This document shows, in pieces, positions 38,044 to 43,758 of a DNA stretch of 64,000 nt (position 1 is the first letter of the stretch; each line of letters begins with the position of its first letter). Position numbers and translations under genes: made by a program. The notes under the pieces are model-generated. The model was not told the origin of the DNA, searched no databases, and saw only the letters and a list, made by a program, of their open reading frames with translations. The stretch is from Pseudorhodoferax aquiterrae (GTDB taxonomy: Bacteria; Pseudomonadota; Gammaproteobacteria; Burkholderiales; Burkholderiaceae_C): contig NZ_BMYK01000004.1 of assembly GCF_014652235.1 (NCBI RefSeq), positions 1-64,000 on the forward strand. Direction: 5' to 3'.

Positions 38044-38951
38044 TCTGACAGCGCTGCCCCCGTGCAGTGCGCCACGAATTCCGCCGCCGTGCGCCCCAGC
38101 GGCTTGTGCCGGTGCGTCACCACTGCGAGCCGGCGCGACGCCGCCGGCAGCCGCGTGCGCAGCGCGACCAGCCAGCCCTCCGCCAGCGCCTGCGCCACGG
38201 CCTGGCGTGACAGGCAGCCCAGCCCCGCACCGGCCGCGACCAGGCGCTTGATCGCCTCGGTGCTGCCGAGCTCGAAGCCCACGTCCAGCCGGTCCAGGTG
38301 CGCCATGAGCCAGTTGTCCGTGGCCTGGCGCGTGCCGGATTCGGGCTCGCGCAGGATCCAGGTGGTATCGGCCAGCTGACGCGCCGTGGCCGTGCGCGCG
38401 GCCAGCGGGTGGTCGGGCGCCGCCACGATCACGAGCTCGTCCTCGCGCCAGGCTTGCACCGCCAGGTCGGGATGGGTCTGCGGCCCTTCGATGAAGCCCA
38501 CGTCCACCGTGAAGGCGGCCACCGCCTCGATCACTTCGCTGGTGTTGGCGATGCGCAGGCGCACGCGGCTGCGCGGGTGGGCCCGCGTCCAGTCGGCCAC
38601 CAGGCCGGGCAGCAGGTATTCGCCGATCGTGAAGCTGGCCGCCACGTGCAGCGGCGTGGCGTGCTCGCCAGCGAACAGGGTCTGCAGCTCGCCGGCCTGC
38701 TCCAGCACGGTGCGGGCCCGCGGCAGCAGGGCGCGGCCGTTCTCGTTGAGCAGCAGGCGCCGGCCCACGCGGTCGAACAGCGTCACGCCCAGGGCCGCTT
38801 CGAGTTCGGCCAGCGCGGCGCTGGCCGCGGACTGCGAGCGTGACACGCGGCCGGCCGCGCCGCGCGTGGAGCCGGCCTGCGCGGTGGCGACGAACACCTC
38901 CAGCTGGCGCAGGTTCAAGCGCAGGCGCTGATCGGGTTTTTCGATCATCAT
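38034..38951 (-). CDS. LysR-family regulator next to soeABC
   Basis: 305 residues. HTH LNLRQLEVFVATAQAGSTRGAAGRVSRSQSAASAALAELEAALG, then an effector domain with FTIGEYLLPGLVADWTRAHPRSRVRLRI and SGTRQATDNWLM. The motif set resembles the CysB/YeiE-like group, where YeiE is linked to sulfite response in enteric bacteria. Divergent from the sulfite-dehydrogenase genes with about 100 bp between, so it is the likely regulator. Two consecutive ATGs (38951, 38948) make the start ambiguous by one residue. Confidence 0.88.
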   Translation of the reverse strand: MMIEKPDQRLRLNLRQLEVFVATAQAGSTRGAAGRVSRSQSAASAALAELEAALGVTLFDRVGRRLLLNENGRALLPRARTVLEQAGELQTLFAGEHATPLHVAASFTIGEYLLPGLVADWTRAHPRSRVRLRIANTSEVIEAVAAFTVDVGFIEGPQTHPDLAVQAWREDELVIVAAPDHPLAARTATARQLADTTWILREPESGTRQATDNWLMAHLDRLDVGFELGSTEAIKRLVAAGAGLGCLSRQAVAQALAEGWLVALRTRLPAASRRLAVVTHRHKPLGRTAAEFVAHCTGAALSDHS

Positions 38952-39014
38952 GAGAAAAATTATCGGCTTTTTGATGGCGTGGGGCGGCTTTACGATGGCT
39001 TGCCGGTTATTTGC

Positions 39015-39034
39015 TTATGCCGATCGGCGCATAA
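39015..39034. promoter_or_regulatory. Candidate LysR operator upstream of soeA
   Basis: TTATGC-N8-GCATAA inverted repeat in an AT-enriched 103-bp divergent promoter region. It lies 20 bp before the chosen soeA start and fits the dyad layout of LysR-type sites. Confidence 0.45.
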
Positions 39035-39054
39035 CGAAACTCCACGAGGCGCCT

Positions 39055-41997
39055 GTGCTGCAGTTCCTCTCTCCCGAGCCCTTGCACGACCCCTTGGCCG
39101 CGCCCACGCCCACCGACGCGACCACGGTCAAGACCACCACCTGCTACATGTGCGCCTGCCGCTGCGGCATCCGCGTGCATCTGCGCGAGGGCGAGCAGGG
39201 CCCGGAAGTGCGCTACATCGACGGCAACCCCGACCACCCGCTGAACCAGGGCGTGATCTGCGCCAAGGGCTCGGCCGGCATCATGAAGCAGTACTCGCCG
39301 GCGCGGCTCACGCAGCCGCTCAGGCGCAAGCCGGGCAGTGAGCGCGGTGCGGGCGCGTTCGAGCCCATTTCCTGGGACGAGGCCCTGGCCCTGTTGACCG
39401 AGCGGCTCGCGAAGATCCGCGCCACCGACCCCAAGAAGTTCGCGCTGTTCACGGGCCGCGACCAGATGCAGGCGCTCACGGGCTTGTTCGCGCGCCAGTT
39501 CGGCACGCCCAACTACGCGGCGCATGGCGGCTTCTGCTCGGTGAACATGGCGGCCGGCATGATCTACACCATCGGCGGCAGCTTCTGGGAGTTCGGCGGG
39601 CCGGACCTGGAGCGTTCCAGGCTGTTCGTCATGATCGGCACGGCCGAGGACCACCACAGCAACCCGATGAAGATGGCGCTCGGCAAGTTCAAGCGCGCGG
39701 GCGGGCGCTTCATCGCGATCAACCCCATCCGCACGGGCTACGCCGCGATCGCCGACGAATGGATCCCGATCAAGCCCGGCACCGACGGCGCACTGCTCAT
39801 GGCGCTGCTGCACGTGCTGATCGCGGACGACCTGGTCGACCACGACTTCCTCAAGCGTTTCACCAACGCGCCGCAGCTCGTGGTGCTGGACGGCGGCGCG
39901 CGCGACGGCCTGTTCGCCTTCGACCCCGACCCGCAGCGCGGGCCGCCCGGCGATGGCCGGCATCCGCACAACAAGCTCATCTGGTGCAGGAACGGCCAGC
40001 GCGTGCTGAATGCCTACCCCGAAGGCATTGCCGAGGGCTGCGACCCCGCGCTCGAAGGCCACTACCTGCTTGCCGACGGCACGCGCGTCGCGCCCGCATT
40101 CCAGCTGCTGCGCGAGCGCGTGGCCTCGTGCACGCCCGAGTGGGCCGAGGCCATCTGCGGCGTGCCGGCCGCGCGCATCCGCCGGTTGGCGCGCGAGATG
40201 GGCGAGACCGCCATGCACCAGGCCTTCGAGCTGCCCATCCCCTGGGAGGACGCCTGGGGCAAGCAGCACGCCACCACCATCGGCCGTCCTGTGGCCTTCC
40301 ACGCCATGCGTGGCCTGGCGGCGCATTCCAATGGTTTCCAGACCGTGCGGGCGTTGGCCGTGCTCATGAGCGTGCTGGGCACCATCGACCGGCCGGGCGG
40401 CTTTCGCCACAAGGCGCCGTACCCGCGCCACATCGTCCCAAACTACCGGGCCTTCAACGACCCGGACATGATCCAGCCTAACACGCCGCTCAACGCCGCG
40501 CCGCTGGGTTTTCCGGCCAACCCGGACGAGCTGGCCATCTACCCCGATGGCTCGCCGATCCGCATCGACCACGCCTTCTCGTGGGAGCATCCGCTGTCGG
40601 CCCACGGGCTCATGCACAACGTGATCACCAACGCGGTCAAGGGCGACCCGTACCGCATCGACACGCTGCTGATCTTCATGGCCAACATGGCCTGGAACAG
40701 CAGCATGAACACGCAGGCCGTGCGCGAGATGCTGAACCGCAAGGACGCGGATGGCGAGTACCGTATCCCGTTCCTGGTCGTCTGCGACGCGTTCCAGAGC
40801 GAGACCGTGGCCTTCGCCGACCTGGTGCTGCCCGACACCACGTATCTCGAGCGCCACGACGTGATGAGCATGCTGGACCGGCCGATCTCCGAATTCGACG
40901 GCCCGGTCGACTCGGTGCGCGTGCCGGTGCTGCCGCCCACCGGCCAGTGCCGGCCGTTCCAGGAGGTGCTGATCGAACTGGGCTCGCGGCTGAAGTTCCC
41001 GGCCTTCACCACGGCCGAGGGCGAACGCAAGTTCAAGGACTACCCGGACTTCGTCGTCAACTTCCAGCCGCAGCCCGGCATCGGCTTCCTGATGGGCTGG
41101 CGCGGCAAGGACGGCACCGAACACCTGCGTGGCGAGCCGAATCCGAAGCAGTGGGAGATGTACGCGCAGAACAACTGCGTGTTCCAGTACCACATGCCCG
41201 AGGGCATGCAGTACATGCGCAACTGGAACCGCGCCTACCTGGACTTCGCCAAGGACAAGGGCTGGCGCCAGAAGAACGACCCGGTGCAACTGGCGCTGTA
41301 CAGCGACACGCTGCAGTGCTTCCGGCTCGCGGCCCGGGGCCAATGCGGCGGCCGCCAGCCGCCCGAGCACCTGCGCGAACGCATCGCCACCTACTTCGAT
41401 CCGCTGCCCTTCTGGTATGCGCCGCTGGAGGAGGCCGCCACCGACCTCGCGGCCTACCCGCTCAACGCGGTCACCCAGCGGCCCATGGCCATGTACCACT
41501 CCTGGGATTCGCAGAACGCCTGGCTGCGCCAGATCCACAGCCACAATTACCTGCACGTGAACCCGAAGACGGCGCAGGCCGCCGGCATCGCCGATGGGGG
41601 CTGGTGCTGGGTCGAGAGCCCCTGGGGCAAGGTGCGTGGCATGGCCCGCTACACCGAGGCCGTGGAGCCCGGCACGGTGTGGACCTGGAACGCCATCGGC
41701 AAGGCCGACAGCGCCTGGCAGCTCGCGCCCGGCGCGGACGAGGCGCGCAAGGGCTTTCTGTTGAACCACCTGATCAGCGAGGAACTGCCCTGTGCGGGCA
41801 CGCCTGCCGGCACGATCAGCAATTCCGACCCCATCACGGGCCAGGCCGGCTGGTACGACGTGCGCGTGCGCATCCGGCCGGCCGGGCCCGAGGAGCCGCA
41901 GGAGAGCTATCCGCAGTTCGCGGCCGTGCCGCCTGCGCCCGGCGTGCGCGGCAAGGCGCAGCGCGTGCTGGCCTACTTCGCGGGAGGAAAAAAATGA
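39055..41997 (+). CDS. soeA: Sulfite dehydrogenase (quinone), molybdopterin subunit SoeA
   Basis: 980 residues. N-terminal 4Fe-4S motif TTTCYMCACRCGIRVHL (C30, C33, C37, with the fourth cysteine in GVICAKGSAGIM), then molybdopterin domains. GGFCSVNMAAGMIYTIGG supplies the likely Mo-ligand cysteine. The C-terminal dinucleotide-binding part includes GMARYTEAVEPGTVW. This pattern is that of SoeA, which oxidises sulfite to sulfate at the cytoplasmic face. No Tat signal is present, as expected for SoeA. GTG at 39055 is chosen: GAGG stands 5 nt upstream, while the ATG at 38950 overlaps the lysR start codon and would place the whole promoter region inside the gene. Polysulfide or thiosulfate reductase is an alternative. 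Confidence 0.85.
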   Translation: MLQFLSPEPLHDPLAAPTPTDATTVKTTTCYMCACRCGIRVHLREGEQGPEVRYIDGNPDHPLNQGVICAKGSAGIMKQYSPARLTQPLRRKPGSERGAGAFEPISWDEALALLTERLAKIRATDPKKFALFTGRDQMQALTGLFARQFGTPNYAAHGGFCSVNMAAGMIYTIGGSFWEFGGPDLERSRLFVMIGTAEDHHSNPMKMALGKFKRAGGRFIAINPIRTGYAAIADEWIPIKPGTDGALLMALLHVLIADDLVDHDFLKRFTNAPQLVVLDGGARDGLFAFDPDPQRGPPGDGRHPHNKLIWCRNGQRVLNAYPEGIAEGCDPALEGHYLLADGTRVAPAFQLLRERVASCTPEWAEAICGVPAARIRRLAREMGETAMHQAFELPIPWEDAWGKQHATTIGRPVAFHAMRGLAAHSNGFQTVRALAVLMSVLGTIDRPGGFRHKAPYPRHIVPNYRAFNDPDMIQPNTPLNAAPLGFPANPDELAIYPDGSPIRIDHAFSWEHPLSAHGLMHNVITNAVKGDPYRIDTLLIFMANMAWNSSMNTQAVREMLNRKDADGEYRIPFLVVCDAFQSETVAFADLVLPDTTYLERHDVMSMLDRPISEFDGPVDSVRVPVLPPTGQCRPFQEVLIELGSRLKFPAFTTAEGERKFKDYPDFVVNFQPQPGIGFLMGWRGKDGTEHLRGEPNPKQWEMYAQNNCVFQYHMPEGMQYMRNWNRAYLDFAKDKGWRQKNDPVQLALYSDTLQCFRLAARGQCGGRQPPEHLRERIATYFDPLPFWYAPLEEAATDLAAYPLNAVTQRPMAMYHSWDSQNAWLRQIHSHNYLHVNPKTAQAAGIADGGWCWVESPWGKVRGMARYTEAVEPGTVWTWNAIGKADSAWQLAPGADEARKGFLLNHLISEELPCAGTPAGTISNSDPITGQAGWYDVRVRIRPAGPEEPQESYPQFAAVPPAPGVRGKAQRVLAYFAGGKK

Positions 41998-42083
41998 CCC
42001 CCACGCTCCCCCGCTTCGCGCGGTCCGCTGCCCCCCGAGGGGGCGCTTCAGTGCCTTCGGGCGGCCGGGCGGCACTGAAATGA
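41994..42083 (+). CDS. 29-residue linker ORF between soeA and soeB
   Basis: The ATG (41994) overlaps the soeA stop and has a near-ideal Shine-Dalgarno GGAGG six nt upstream (41983-41987). Its TGA (42081-42083) overlaps the soeB ATG (42080). Its codons are the inserted repeat (starting MTPTLPRFARS, rich in Arg, Gly, Ala), so the peptide itself is unlikely to have a job. Its use is probably to carry ribosomes from soeA across the insertion to soeB. It was found from the start/stop overlaps and has no homology support. Confidence 0.45.
   Translation: MTPTLPRFARSAAPRGGASVPSGGRAALK
41998..42077. repeat. 80-bp REP/MITE-like insertion between soeA and soeB
   Basis: Flanked by identical AAATGA hexamers (41992-41997 and 42078-42083) that look like a target duplication. 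It contains a C-run/G-run hairpin (42032-42043) and TTCAGTGCC...GGCACTGAA (42047-42055 / 42071-42079), whose right arm ends at the soeB start codon. I recall very similar GC-rich sequences between many Comamonadaceae genes, but could not search. Confidence 0.6.
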
Positions 42084-42835
42084 TCCAGTGGCTCAAGGAC
42101 CTGTTGAACCCGCAGCCGCTGGTGTCGCCGGCTCCCGCCCCTGCGCCAGCCCATCCGCCCAGCGCGCGCTGGCAGCAAGGCGACACGCTGGCCAAGCAGC
42201 TTGCGCTGGTGATCGACCTCAACGTCTGCGTGGGCTGCCATGCCTGCGTGACCTCGTGCAAGGAGTGGAACACCTCGGGCTCGGCCGGCCCGCTCGCCGA
42301 CGAGCGCGCCTACGCGGCCGACCCCACGGGCACCTTCTTCAACCGCGTGCAGACCTACGAGGCGGGCGTGTTTCCGACCATGGACACGGTGCACTTTCCC
42401 AAGAGCTGTCTGCACTGCGAGGACCCGCCCTGCGTGCCGGTCTGTCCCACGGGCGCGAGCTACAAGCGCGCCGCCGACGGCATCGTGCTGGTGGACTACG
42501 ACAAGTGCATCGGCTGCAAGTACTGCGCCTGGGCCTGCCCCTACGGCGCGCGCGAGCTGGACGAAGAGCGCCAGGTCATGACCAAGTGCACGCTGTGCGT
42601 GGACCGCGTGCACGACGACAAGCTCGCGCCGGAAGACCGCAAGCCCGCCTGCGTGAAGGCCTGCCCGACCAACGCGCGGCTGTTCGGCGACGTGAAGGAC
42701 CCGACCAGCGAGGTCTCCATCGCGATCCGCGAGCGCGGCGGCTATGCGCTGATGCCCGAGTGGGAGACGCAGCCGGCCAACCGCTACCTGCCGCGGCGCA
42801 CCATGCAGTCCGACGGCCAGGGAGGGCAGGCATGA
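42080..42835 (+). CDS. soeB: Sulfite dehydrogenase iron-sulfur subunit SoeB
   Basis: 251 residues. Four cysteine clusters for [4Fe-4S] centres: CVGCHACVTSC (~50-60), CLHCEDPPCVPVCP, CIGCKYCAWACP, and CTLCVDR with CVKACP. This is the DmsB/PsrB/SoeB electron-transfer subunit passing electrons from SoeA to the membrane subunit. There is no usable ribosome-binding site directly before the ATG: the preceding bases form one arm of a hairpin. Translation probably depends on coupling to the 29-codon ORF upstream. The stop overlaps the soeC start (ATGA). Confidence 0.9.
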   Translation: MIQWLKDLLNPQPLVSPAPAPAPAHPPSARWQQGDTLAKQLALVIDLNVCVGCHACVTSCKEWNTSGSAGPLADERAYAADPTGTFFNRVQTYEAGVFPTMDTVHFPKSCLHCEDPPCVPVCPTGASYKRAADGIVLVDYDKCIGCKYCAWACPYGARELDEERQVMTKCTLCVDRVHDDKLAPEDRKPACVKACPTNARLFGDVKDPTSEVSIAIRERGGYALMPEWETQPANRYLPRRTMQSDGQGGQA

Positions 42836-43758
42836 ACCCGGCCATGTCGGTGGTGGTGTTCACGGCCATCGCCGGCGCCGCGCAGGGGCTGGTGGTGGCG
42901 CTGGCCGTGGCCACGCTGATCGGCGTGCCGATGGCGGGCGGCTTCGTCGCCCATGCGCTGCTGCTGGCCGCCGCCATGGCCACGGTCGGGCTGCTGTCGT
43001 CCTTCGGCCACCTGGGCCGACCGGCGCGGGCCTGGCGCGCCGTGCTCATGTGGCGCACCTCCTGGCTTTCGCGCGAATGCCTGGTGCTGCCGGCCTTCAT
43101 CGGCTGGACGCTGCTGTGGTGGGCGCTGCTGCCGGCCGACGGCACTGCCCCGGTCTGGTTGCCGCTGGGCGCCTTGCTGCTGTCCGCACTGCTGTGGCTG
43201 TGCACGGCCATGATCTACGCCTGCCTGCGCTTCATCCAGGAATGGGCGCAGCCGCTCACGCTGGTCAACTTCATCCTCATCGGGCAGGGTGCGGGCCTGG
43301 TGCTGGTCAGTGCGCTGGCCGCAGGGGCGGGTGAAGAGGCCTTGCTGGCCCGCACCGGGCCGGCCGCGCTGGGCGTGCTGCTGGCGGCGCTGGCCGCGCG
43401 CTGCCTCACGCTGGCGCGCAATGCGGCGCTGCGACCCAGGTCCACGCTGCACAGCGCCACCGGCATCCGCACGCCGCAGCTCGTGCAGAAGTCCATGGGC
43501 ATGTCGGCCGGCGCGTTCAACACGCGCGAGTTCTTCCATGGTCGGACCGCCATGTTCCTGAAGAACCTCAAGTGGCTGTTCCTGCTGTGCGGCTTCGTGC
43601 TGCCCGGGCTCTGCGCGGCCGCGGCGCTGGCCGGTGGCCCGGCCTGGCTGTGGCCGCTGGCCGTGGCGCTGCAGGTGCCAGGGCTGCTGGCCGAGCGCTG
43701 GTTCTTCTTCGCCCAGGCCCGGCATCCGCAGAACCTGTACTACCAGGTCGTGTCCTGA
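42832..43758 (+). CDS. soeC: Sulfite dehydrogenase membrane anchor SoeC (DmsC family)
   Basis: 308 residues with about eight membrane segments. DmsC-like features: AGAAQGLVVALA, LSSFGHLGRPARAWRAVLMWRTSWLSRE in the first half, CTAMIYACLRFIQEW, and a C-terminal LAERWFFFAQARHPQNLYYQ. It anchors SoeAB and hands electrons to the quinone pool. The stretch from GIRTPQLVQKSMGMSAGAFNTREFFHG is a cytoplasmic-facing loop seen in the SoeC group. The operon ends here with a strong GC hairpin. Confidence 0.88.
   Translation: MNPAMSVVVFTAIAGAAQGLVVALAVATLIGVPMAGGFVAHALLLAAAMATVGLLSSFGHLGRPARAWRAVLMWRTSWLSRECLVLPAFIGWTLLWWALLPADGTAPVWLPLGALLLSALLWLCTAMIYACLRFIQEWAQPLTLVNFILIGQGAGLVLVSALAAGAGEEALLARTGPAALGVLLAALAARCLTLARNAALRPRSTLHSATGIRTPQLVQKSMGMSAGAFNTREFFHGRTAMFLKNLKWLFLLCGFVLPGLCAAAALAGGPAWLWPLAVALQVPGLLAERWFFFAQARHPQNLYYQVVS

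Follow-up and report, generated by a model that had tools for sequence, protein, structure and literature searches.

How can a gene within an operon be translated when a GC-rich, structured repeat lies directly in front of its start codon? The question is raised by the junction of the genes soeA and soeB in a 64,000-nucleotide (nt) stretch of the Pseudorhodoferax aquiterrae genome (contig NZ_BMYK01000004.1, positions 1 to 64,000 of the forward strand), here called the window, where a reading of the letters alone, the original prediction, had placed a repeat insertion. Judged from its sequence, this junction is one instance of a general pattern in Variovorax-related bacteria, and the repeat is probably a mobile mini-cistron that couples translation to the operon gene it has displaced.

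All features of the junction are on the forward strand. The ORF list (ORF, open reading frame) gives soeA, as the original prediction named it, at 38950–41997, encoding a molybdopterin oxidoreductase of 1015 amino acids (Pfam PF00384, PF01568 and PF04879) with its TGA stop at 41995–41997; soeB, named likewise, occupies 42080–42835 and encodes a 4Fe-4S subunit of 251 amino acids (Pfam Fer4_11), its ATG being at 42080–42082. The repeat copy between them spans 41998–42079 by the covariance model (R1, 89.9 bits), has a GC content of 0.79, and finds no match in Rfam at E<=1 when the region 41900–42200 is searched. The hexamer AAATGA occurs on both sides, at 41992–41997 and 42078–42083, with 80 bp (41998–42077) in between. 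A mini-ORF of 29 codons plus TGA (MTPTLPRFARSAAPRGGASVPSGGRAALK) can be read at 41994–42083, its start overlapping the soeA stop and its stop overlapping the soeB start as ATGA, and a Shine-Dalgarno-like GGAGG lies upstream at 41983–41987 (-10.3 kcal/mol against the anti-Shine-Dalgarno sequence, anti-SD). Within the repeat are an inner palindrome, GCCCCCCGAGGGGGC (42030–42044), which is mostly conserved among 50 aligned copies, and a terminal hairpin (42047–42079) whose 9-bp arms, 42047–42055 and 42071–42079, pair with each other; a 45-base segment with the soeB ATG as its last three bases folds at -21.6 kcal/mol, and the pairing reaches the base preceding the ATG. The repeat, the frame bridging it and the hairpin abutting soeB therefore all lie where the original prediction had put them.

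The same prediction held that removal of the repeat would leave the soeA stop overlapping the soeB ATG behind GGAGG, and that an uninserted allele should be sought in relatives. Such alleles exist: in three of the five congeners (G001–G003) the soe flanks are directly adjacent and the repeat is missing. In G003 the empty junction reads GGAGGCAAGAAATGATCCAG (...GGAGGCAAGAAATGATCC) and in G001 GGAGGCCGGAGATGATCCAG (...GGAGGCCGGAGATGATCC), and in both the soeA stop overlaps the soeB start with nothing between and the same soeB ATG is used; in G002 adjacency was judged from coordinates rather than from the junction sequence. The soe genes are probably absent from G004 and G005, since the best match there is the repeat and not the soe flanks. 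GGAGG precedes the soeB start in the empty alleles and the mini-ORF start in the filled allele of the window. These comparisons support the view that the repeat was inserted into an ancestral ATGA stop/start overlap at soeA/soeB, and they go against the refuting case named with the prediction, in which relatives would have no uninserted form. An ATGA overlap is also found at the next junction of the operon (42832–42835), where soeB meets soeC (42832–43758, the end taken from the ORF list), encoding a DmsC-like membrane anchor (Pfam PF04976); no listed NCBIfam model reached its cut-off for the genes that the original prediction named soe.

The soe junction is not the only site with empty and filled forms. 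When the flanks of eight further copies in the P. aquiterrae genome (G000) were searched for in the congeners, all eight had at least one form without the repeat, and a ninth pair, at a Y1_Tnp gene, is filled in G000 and G005 and empty in G001–G004. The native starts at empty sites include ATGA overlaps (L008, L012 and, reversed, L017) and TGACATG (L005, L020). At L016 the native start is apparently GTG (GTGA) and the mini-ORF of the filled allele also begins with GTG, which suggests that the left start is the old start codon, now used by the mini-ORF. At three of the sites where P. aquiterrae has the repeat, congeners carry other, unrelated inserts (L172, L183 and L185), and a segment of its own genome (G000:C37:9992-10309) matches the joined flanks of L020 at 85% without the repeat.

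The repeat belongs to a sizeable family. Searching its own genome, as the original prediction had proposed, gives 27 BLAST matches of the repeat stretch, the window copy included, and 30 covariance-model matches at E<=0.01, one of them in the window. The repeat is present in 113 of 150 sampled genomes of the bacterial family (E<=1e-7), representing 106 of 141 sampled genera, with up to 31 copies per genome as scored; a class-wide sample yields it in three of 143 genomes, namely P. aquiterrae itself, one member of its family (G118) and, with a single weak match, a genome from a different family. Seven plasmid records, all typed non-mobilizable, also contain a match. Tandem arrays occur with periods of 82 bp (L069), 81 bp (G118:C1:2692256-2692576) and 84 bp (G005:C12:36914-37161), and the three units of L069 form three successive mini-ORFs.

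For a census we assembled 143 copies: 28 of the 30 in P. aquiterrae (E<=3e-4), 76 belonging to four congeners, and 39 hand-picked among the best matches listed in 21 genomes of other genera, with at most three per genome. The congener set began as 78 stretches of G001–G004 among the matches listed, with one listed G004 copy and G005 left out; two copies at contig ends were dropped, and tandem neighbours were counted once. Among the 104 copies from P. aquiterrae and its congeners, 90 have coding flanks that run in one direction (co-directional; 66 forward and 24 reverse), and the remainder were scored as divergent (13) or convergent (one). By script, 112 of the 143 copies have sense coding downstream, which reduce to 88 sites after merging of orthologous ones; a few of the other 31 were misread (L113, which is the coupled L006, and L293, in sense by eye). 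The core measures 73–91 bp at unique sites.

At these 88 distinct sense sites the bridging frame recurs. We called a site coupled when an ORF from the left start (ATG, else GTG or TTG) has its stop in the range -8 to +4 relative to the downstream start, and 70 of the 88 are coupled, as compared with 2 and 9 when reading begins one and two bases further on. Of the 88 sites, 79 have a left ATG within 16 nt, against 188 of 1056 control windows. The proportion coupled is 14/18 in P. aquiterrae, 33/41 in the congeners and 23/29 in other genera, and the coupled mini-ORFs have 25–41 codons (median 28). Their stops are at -4 (26 sites), +1 (24), -2 (8), -5 (8), -6 (3) and -7 (1). Since the arrangement is shared by sites that differ in frame and length, the bridge is a property of the family; the bridging ORF and the stop-start geometry of the proposed soeB rescue stand, and they are not peculiar to soeB. 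A translational dosage device was the other role that the original prediction put forward as conceivable.

Descent from a single layout does not account for this closure. Combining the left offset, the core length and the right offset gives 54 distinct geometries among the sites; 46 of these are coupled versus 2 and 7 with the frame shifted, and geometries seen only once are coupled in 34 of 41 cases. The repeat is entered in all three frames (28, 19 and 11 of the 70 coupled sites by a simple motif count, with 12 unassigned), and because three frames are in use among coupled geometries, what is kept is closure of the frame and not the peptide. Where the spacing leaves the gene two bases out of phase (phase 2), the base following its ATG is usually A, at 27 of 41 sites versus 8 of 31 in phase 1 (p=0.0009); phase-2 sites with another base there may be closed at -2 or -5. 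An earlier, biased set of stretches containing exact CTTCGGGCGGCCGGGCGGCACTGACATG (n=58) agrees, with 43 of 56 right-ATG rows stopping at -4, seven at +1, three exceptions and three without a left ATG; four of its stretches (L067, L071, L092 and L099) have no row, their left end being unrecognised, and some of its rows are chance matches. The annotation of Variovorax sp. PBL-E5 agrees independently with a predicted start: the preceding gene ends at 1485, the ATG of the mini-ORF lies at 1493 and its TGA at 1577–1579, and the annotated permease begins at 1581, 1 nt past that stop.

The terminal hairpin is likewise a family feature. Among the coupled copies that have a left ATG (n=67), the 45-nt segment up to and including the downstream start has a median folding energy of -21.6 kcal/mol, and the hairpin's last pair falls most often (29/67) on the base preceding the start codon. 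Across 74 copies (from 74 of the 88 sites, the others having no core match or repeating a sequence) the 9-bp stem forms a mean of 8.05 pairs, versus 4.78 when arms are exchanged between copies, and complementarity is retained among 60 distinct distal arms. For soeB, the statement that it lacks a ribosome-binding site was too strong: a GGGCGG stretch upstream of it scores -5.8 kcal/mol against the anti-SD and is situated within the hairpin. The right start is thus predicted to be hidden rather than devoid of signals. By inspection, the arm contains the gene start at L009, L012, L227 and L285, and from these sites copying of the stem from the host was considered; some arms recur at different sites. 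At L009 (G000:C21:100607-100686), in front of a gene that is biotin-carboxylase-like by eye, the start reads ATGCGGAAA in the filled allele, whose codon 2 fits the stem, and ATGAAAAAA in two empty alleles. In L276, L285, L308, L309 and L232, which are at different sites, the right arm carries ATGAAAA, a start and a lysine codon inside the hairpin.

From these features we consider it likely that the repeat acts as a mobile mini-cistron. A unit of about 80–90 bp would enter at the start codon of an operon gene, mostly along the direction of transcription, so that the native ribosome-binding site and start codon would now begin a mini-ORF of 25–41 codons running through the repeat. Its stop would lie at -7 to +1 nt relative to a second start codon, at which the displaced gene begins. 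This second start would be masked by the terminal hairpin until a ribosome on the mini-ORF melts the stem and then re-initiates, and by this hand-over of ribosomes the operon would survive the insertion. The insertions, their positions, the frames and the covariation of the hairpin are seen in the sequences themselves; translation of the mini-ORF and re-initiation we infer.

Several observations weigh against this account. The right starts score better against the anti-SD (median -5.8 kcal/mol) than the left starts (-3.4) and random upstream coding sequence (-2.4), with scores of -4 or lower at 52/67 right starts, 31/67 left starts and 37/201 random coding positions; the better scores arise because the G-rich arm pairs with the anti-SD, and they leave room for initiation independent of the mini-ORF. 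The non-coupled sites among the 88 comprise five in-frame fusions, seven other cases, four sites without a second start and two without a left start. When rows on both strands are counted, 66 of 79 forward rows are coupled and only 6 of 37 reverse rows, with four fusions among the latter. The match on a Rhodoferax plasmid lies within an opposite-strand gene and that on an Acidovorax plasmid between two opposite-strand genes, the arrangement not being shown as annotated in either; in four of the seven plasmid records nothing is annotated close to the match. Gene calls were based on codon-position GC rather than on a gene finder, the search model was trained on copies often ending in CTGAC and favours such copies, and the choice by hand from top-scoring matches applies to all copies from other genera. 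Two of the four reverse-row fusions, L132 (G000:C4:438679-438757) and its G001 ortholog L214, are reversed copies joined in-frame to a protein that is prepilin-like by eye (GFTLVELTV), for which the repeat may encode the leader.

The closest rival holds that survivorship is enough: the repeat would insert at a short ATG-containing motif anywhere, and those start-codon insertions that happen to close the frame would be tolerated, so that the mini-ORF protects the operon and was never selected as a device. The same frame closure and peptides that differ by frame are expected under this explanation, and a target motif combined with filtering would also fit. It predicts, however, that neutral places such as convergent gaps hold many copies, where only the single convergent copy noted above was scored. 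We give it a little less than an even chance of being right; it overlaps the mobile mini-cistron account and may hold alongside it.

Less probable is a non-coding structural element, such as an mRNA stabiliser, an attenuator or a protection against Rho, in which the open frames are incidental. The two hairpins and the strong covariation of the terminal stem would suit such an element, but without translation one would not expect 46 of the 54 geometries to close, as opposed to 2 and 7 after a frame shift, and we regard this explanation as unlikely.

The mode of movement bears on a third alternative. The empty and filled sites and the tandem units point to past movement of the repeat, and we infer that machinery mobilising it exists. 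Duplication of the target site, whether of AAATGA or longer, was considered and rejected: although both AAATGA hexamers are present at soeA/soeB, likeness of the two flanks beyond the shared ATG is at the level of shuffled pairs across 67 sites, and the duplication by which MITEs are recognised is thus absent from them. At L008 and its orthologs, next to a gene that is mutL-like by eye, an apparent duplication of about 11–13 bp occurs in G001 and G005; it is not general. A REP element moved by a resident Y1 transposase of the RAYT type was also rejected as the source of mobility. Each of the six genomes of the genus has one Y1_Tnp gene, at one place (by eye before gltB), and at this locus (G000:C3:175508-175906; L143, L010) the repeat stands directly before the ATG in G000 and G005. 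These two are, however, the only ones with a repeat nearby among 35 Y1 loci (six from the genus plus 29 out of 30 others, L336 being left out). Across the 150 genomes, presence of the repeat is not associated with presence of Y1 (p=0.52): 86 genomes carry both, 27 the repeat alone, 26 Y1 alone and 11 neither. Among the 53 genomes with at least seven repeat copies, 11 lack a Y1_Tnp match. A REP/RAYT origin is accordingly very improbable. A conserved functional peptide encoded by the mini-ORF, to which the open frame of coupled copies might point, can be dismissed almost entirely, as the three frames in use give different peptides and the peptide of the window copy matches no Pfam family.

Parts of the proposed mini-cistron are reminiscent of known systems. 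A 2025 review describes the MIRUs of mycobacteria as elements that insert at start codons and carry an internal, coupled ORF (PMC12548453). The repeat family shares with them insertion at the start codons of operonic genes, as seen from the empty sites and the predominance of co-directional flanks, and an internal ORF whose stop meets the gene start. It differs in occurring in another phylum, in its covarying hairpin abutting the start codon, and in having several spacings besides the NTGA overlap and using all three frames. On sequence evidence the family works like the MIRUs, being likened to them by mode of action and not by descent. A literature search for a DTGA target of MIRUs found no paper on it. 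In the 2025 review NTGA (+1) and TGATG (-2) are given as the usual overlaps and -4 (TGA-N-ATG) falls within the range of efficient coupling (PMC12548453); the stop positions found here resemble those of such termination-reinitiation pairs, with the difference that one partner is a mobile repeat.

The family itself is probably the Beta-proteobacterial repeat element (BRE), a match made by description and not by sequence. According to the accessible text of Hot et al. 2011 (PMC3110155), BREs are about 90 bp long (75–91 bp), GC-rich (63.7–78.9%) and mostly intergenic, with some copies overlapping ORF ends, tandem arrays and suspected mobility, and are found in Comamonadaceae and Bordetella. The core length, the tandem units of L069 and the presence of Comamonadaceae genera among the hosts agree with this, and the GC content of the window copy lies at the top of the published range. 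That text describes neither placement at start codons nor coupling and leaves the function open (PMC3110155). As far as titles and the openings of abstracts tell, the BRE paper alone deals with such a repeat and coupling by it is nowhere described, and a text search of the literature for the inner palindrome returned one unrelated paper.

With REP and BIME elements and their RAYTs the family has in common that it consists of dispersed palindromic repeats and that many of its hosts carry a Y1 transposase gene. REP elements are not known to lie at gene starts between co-directional genes. The present copies, in contrast, lie mostly between co-directional genes, at starts, and have no general linkage to Y1. 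A bolder proposal, which we offer only tentatively and think somewhat doubtful, is that the family represents a second, independently evolved class of selfish mini-cistron that targets operon start codons with a frame-flexible ORF and a site-specific hairpin, by means of which any of the three frames would hand ribosomes to the trapped gene, the variable complementary stem being part of target recognition or copying.

An element that inserts within an operon should do harm, and this repeat seems to solve the problem by being itself a cistron. The natural pairs of filled and empty sites, nine besides soe, lend themselves to measurements of coupling, of hairpin melting and of polarity. If the mobile mini-cistron account is true, ordinary metabolic genes of these bacteria would have their translation influenced by many unannotated ORFs of 25–41 codons, and the family would be a case of convergence with the MIRUs of mycobacteria.

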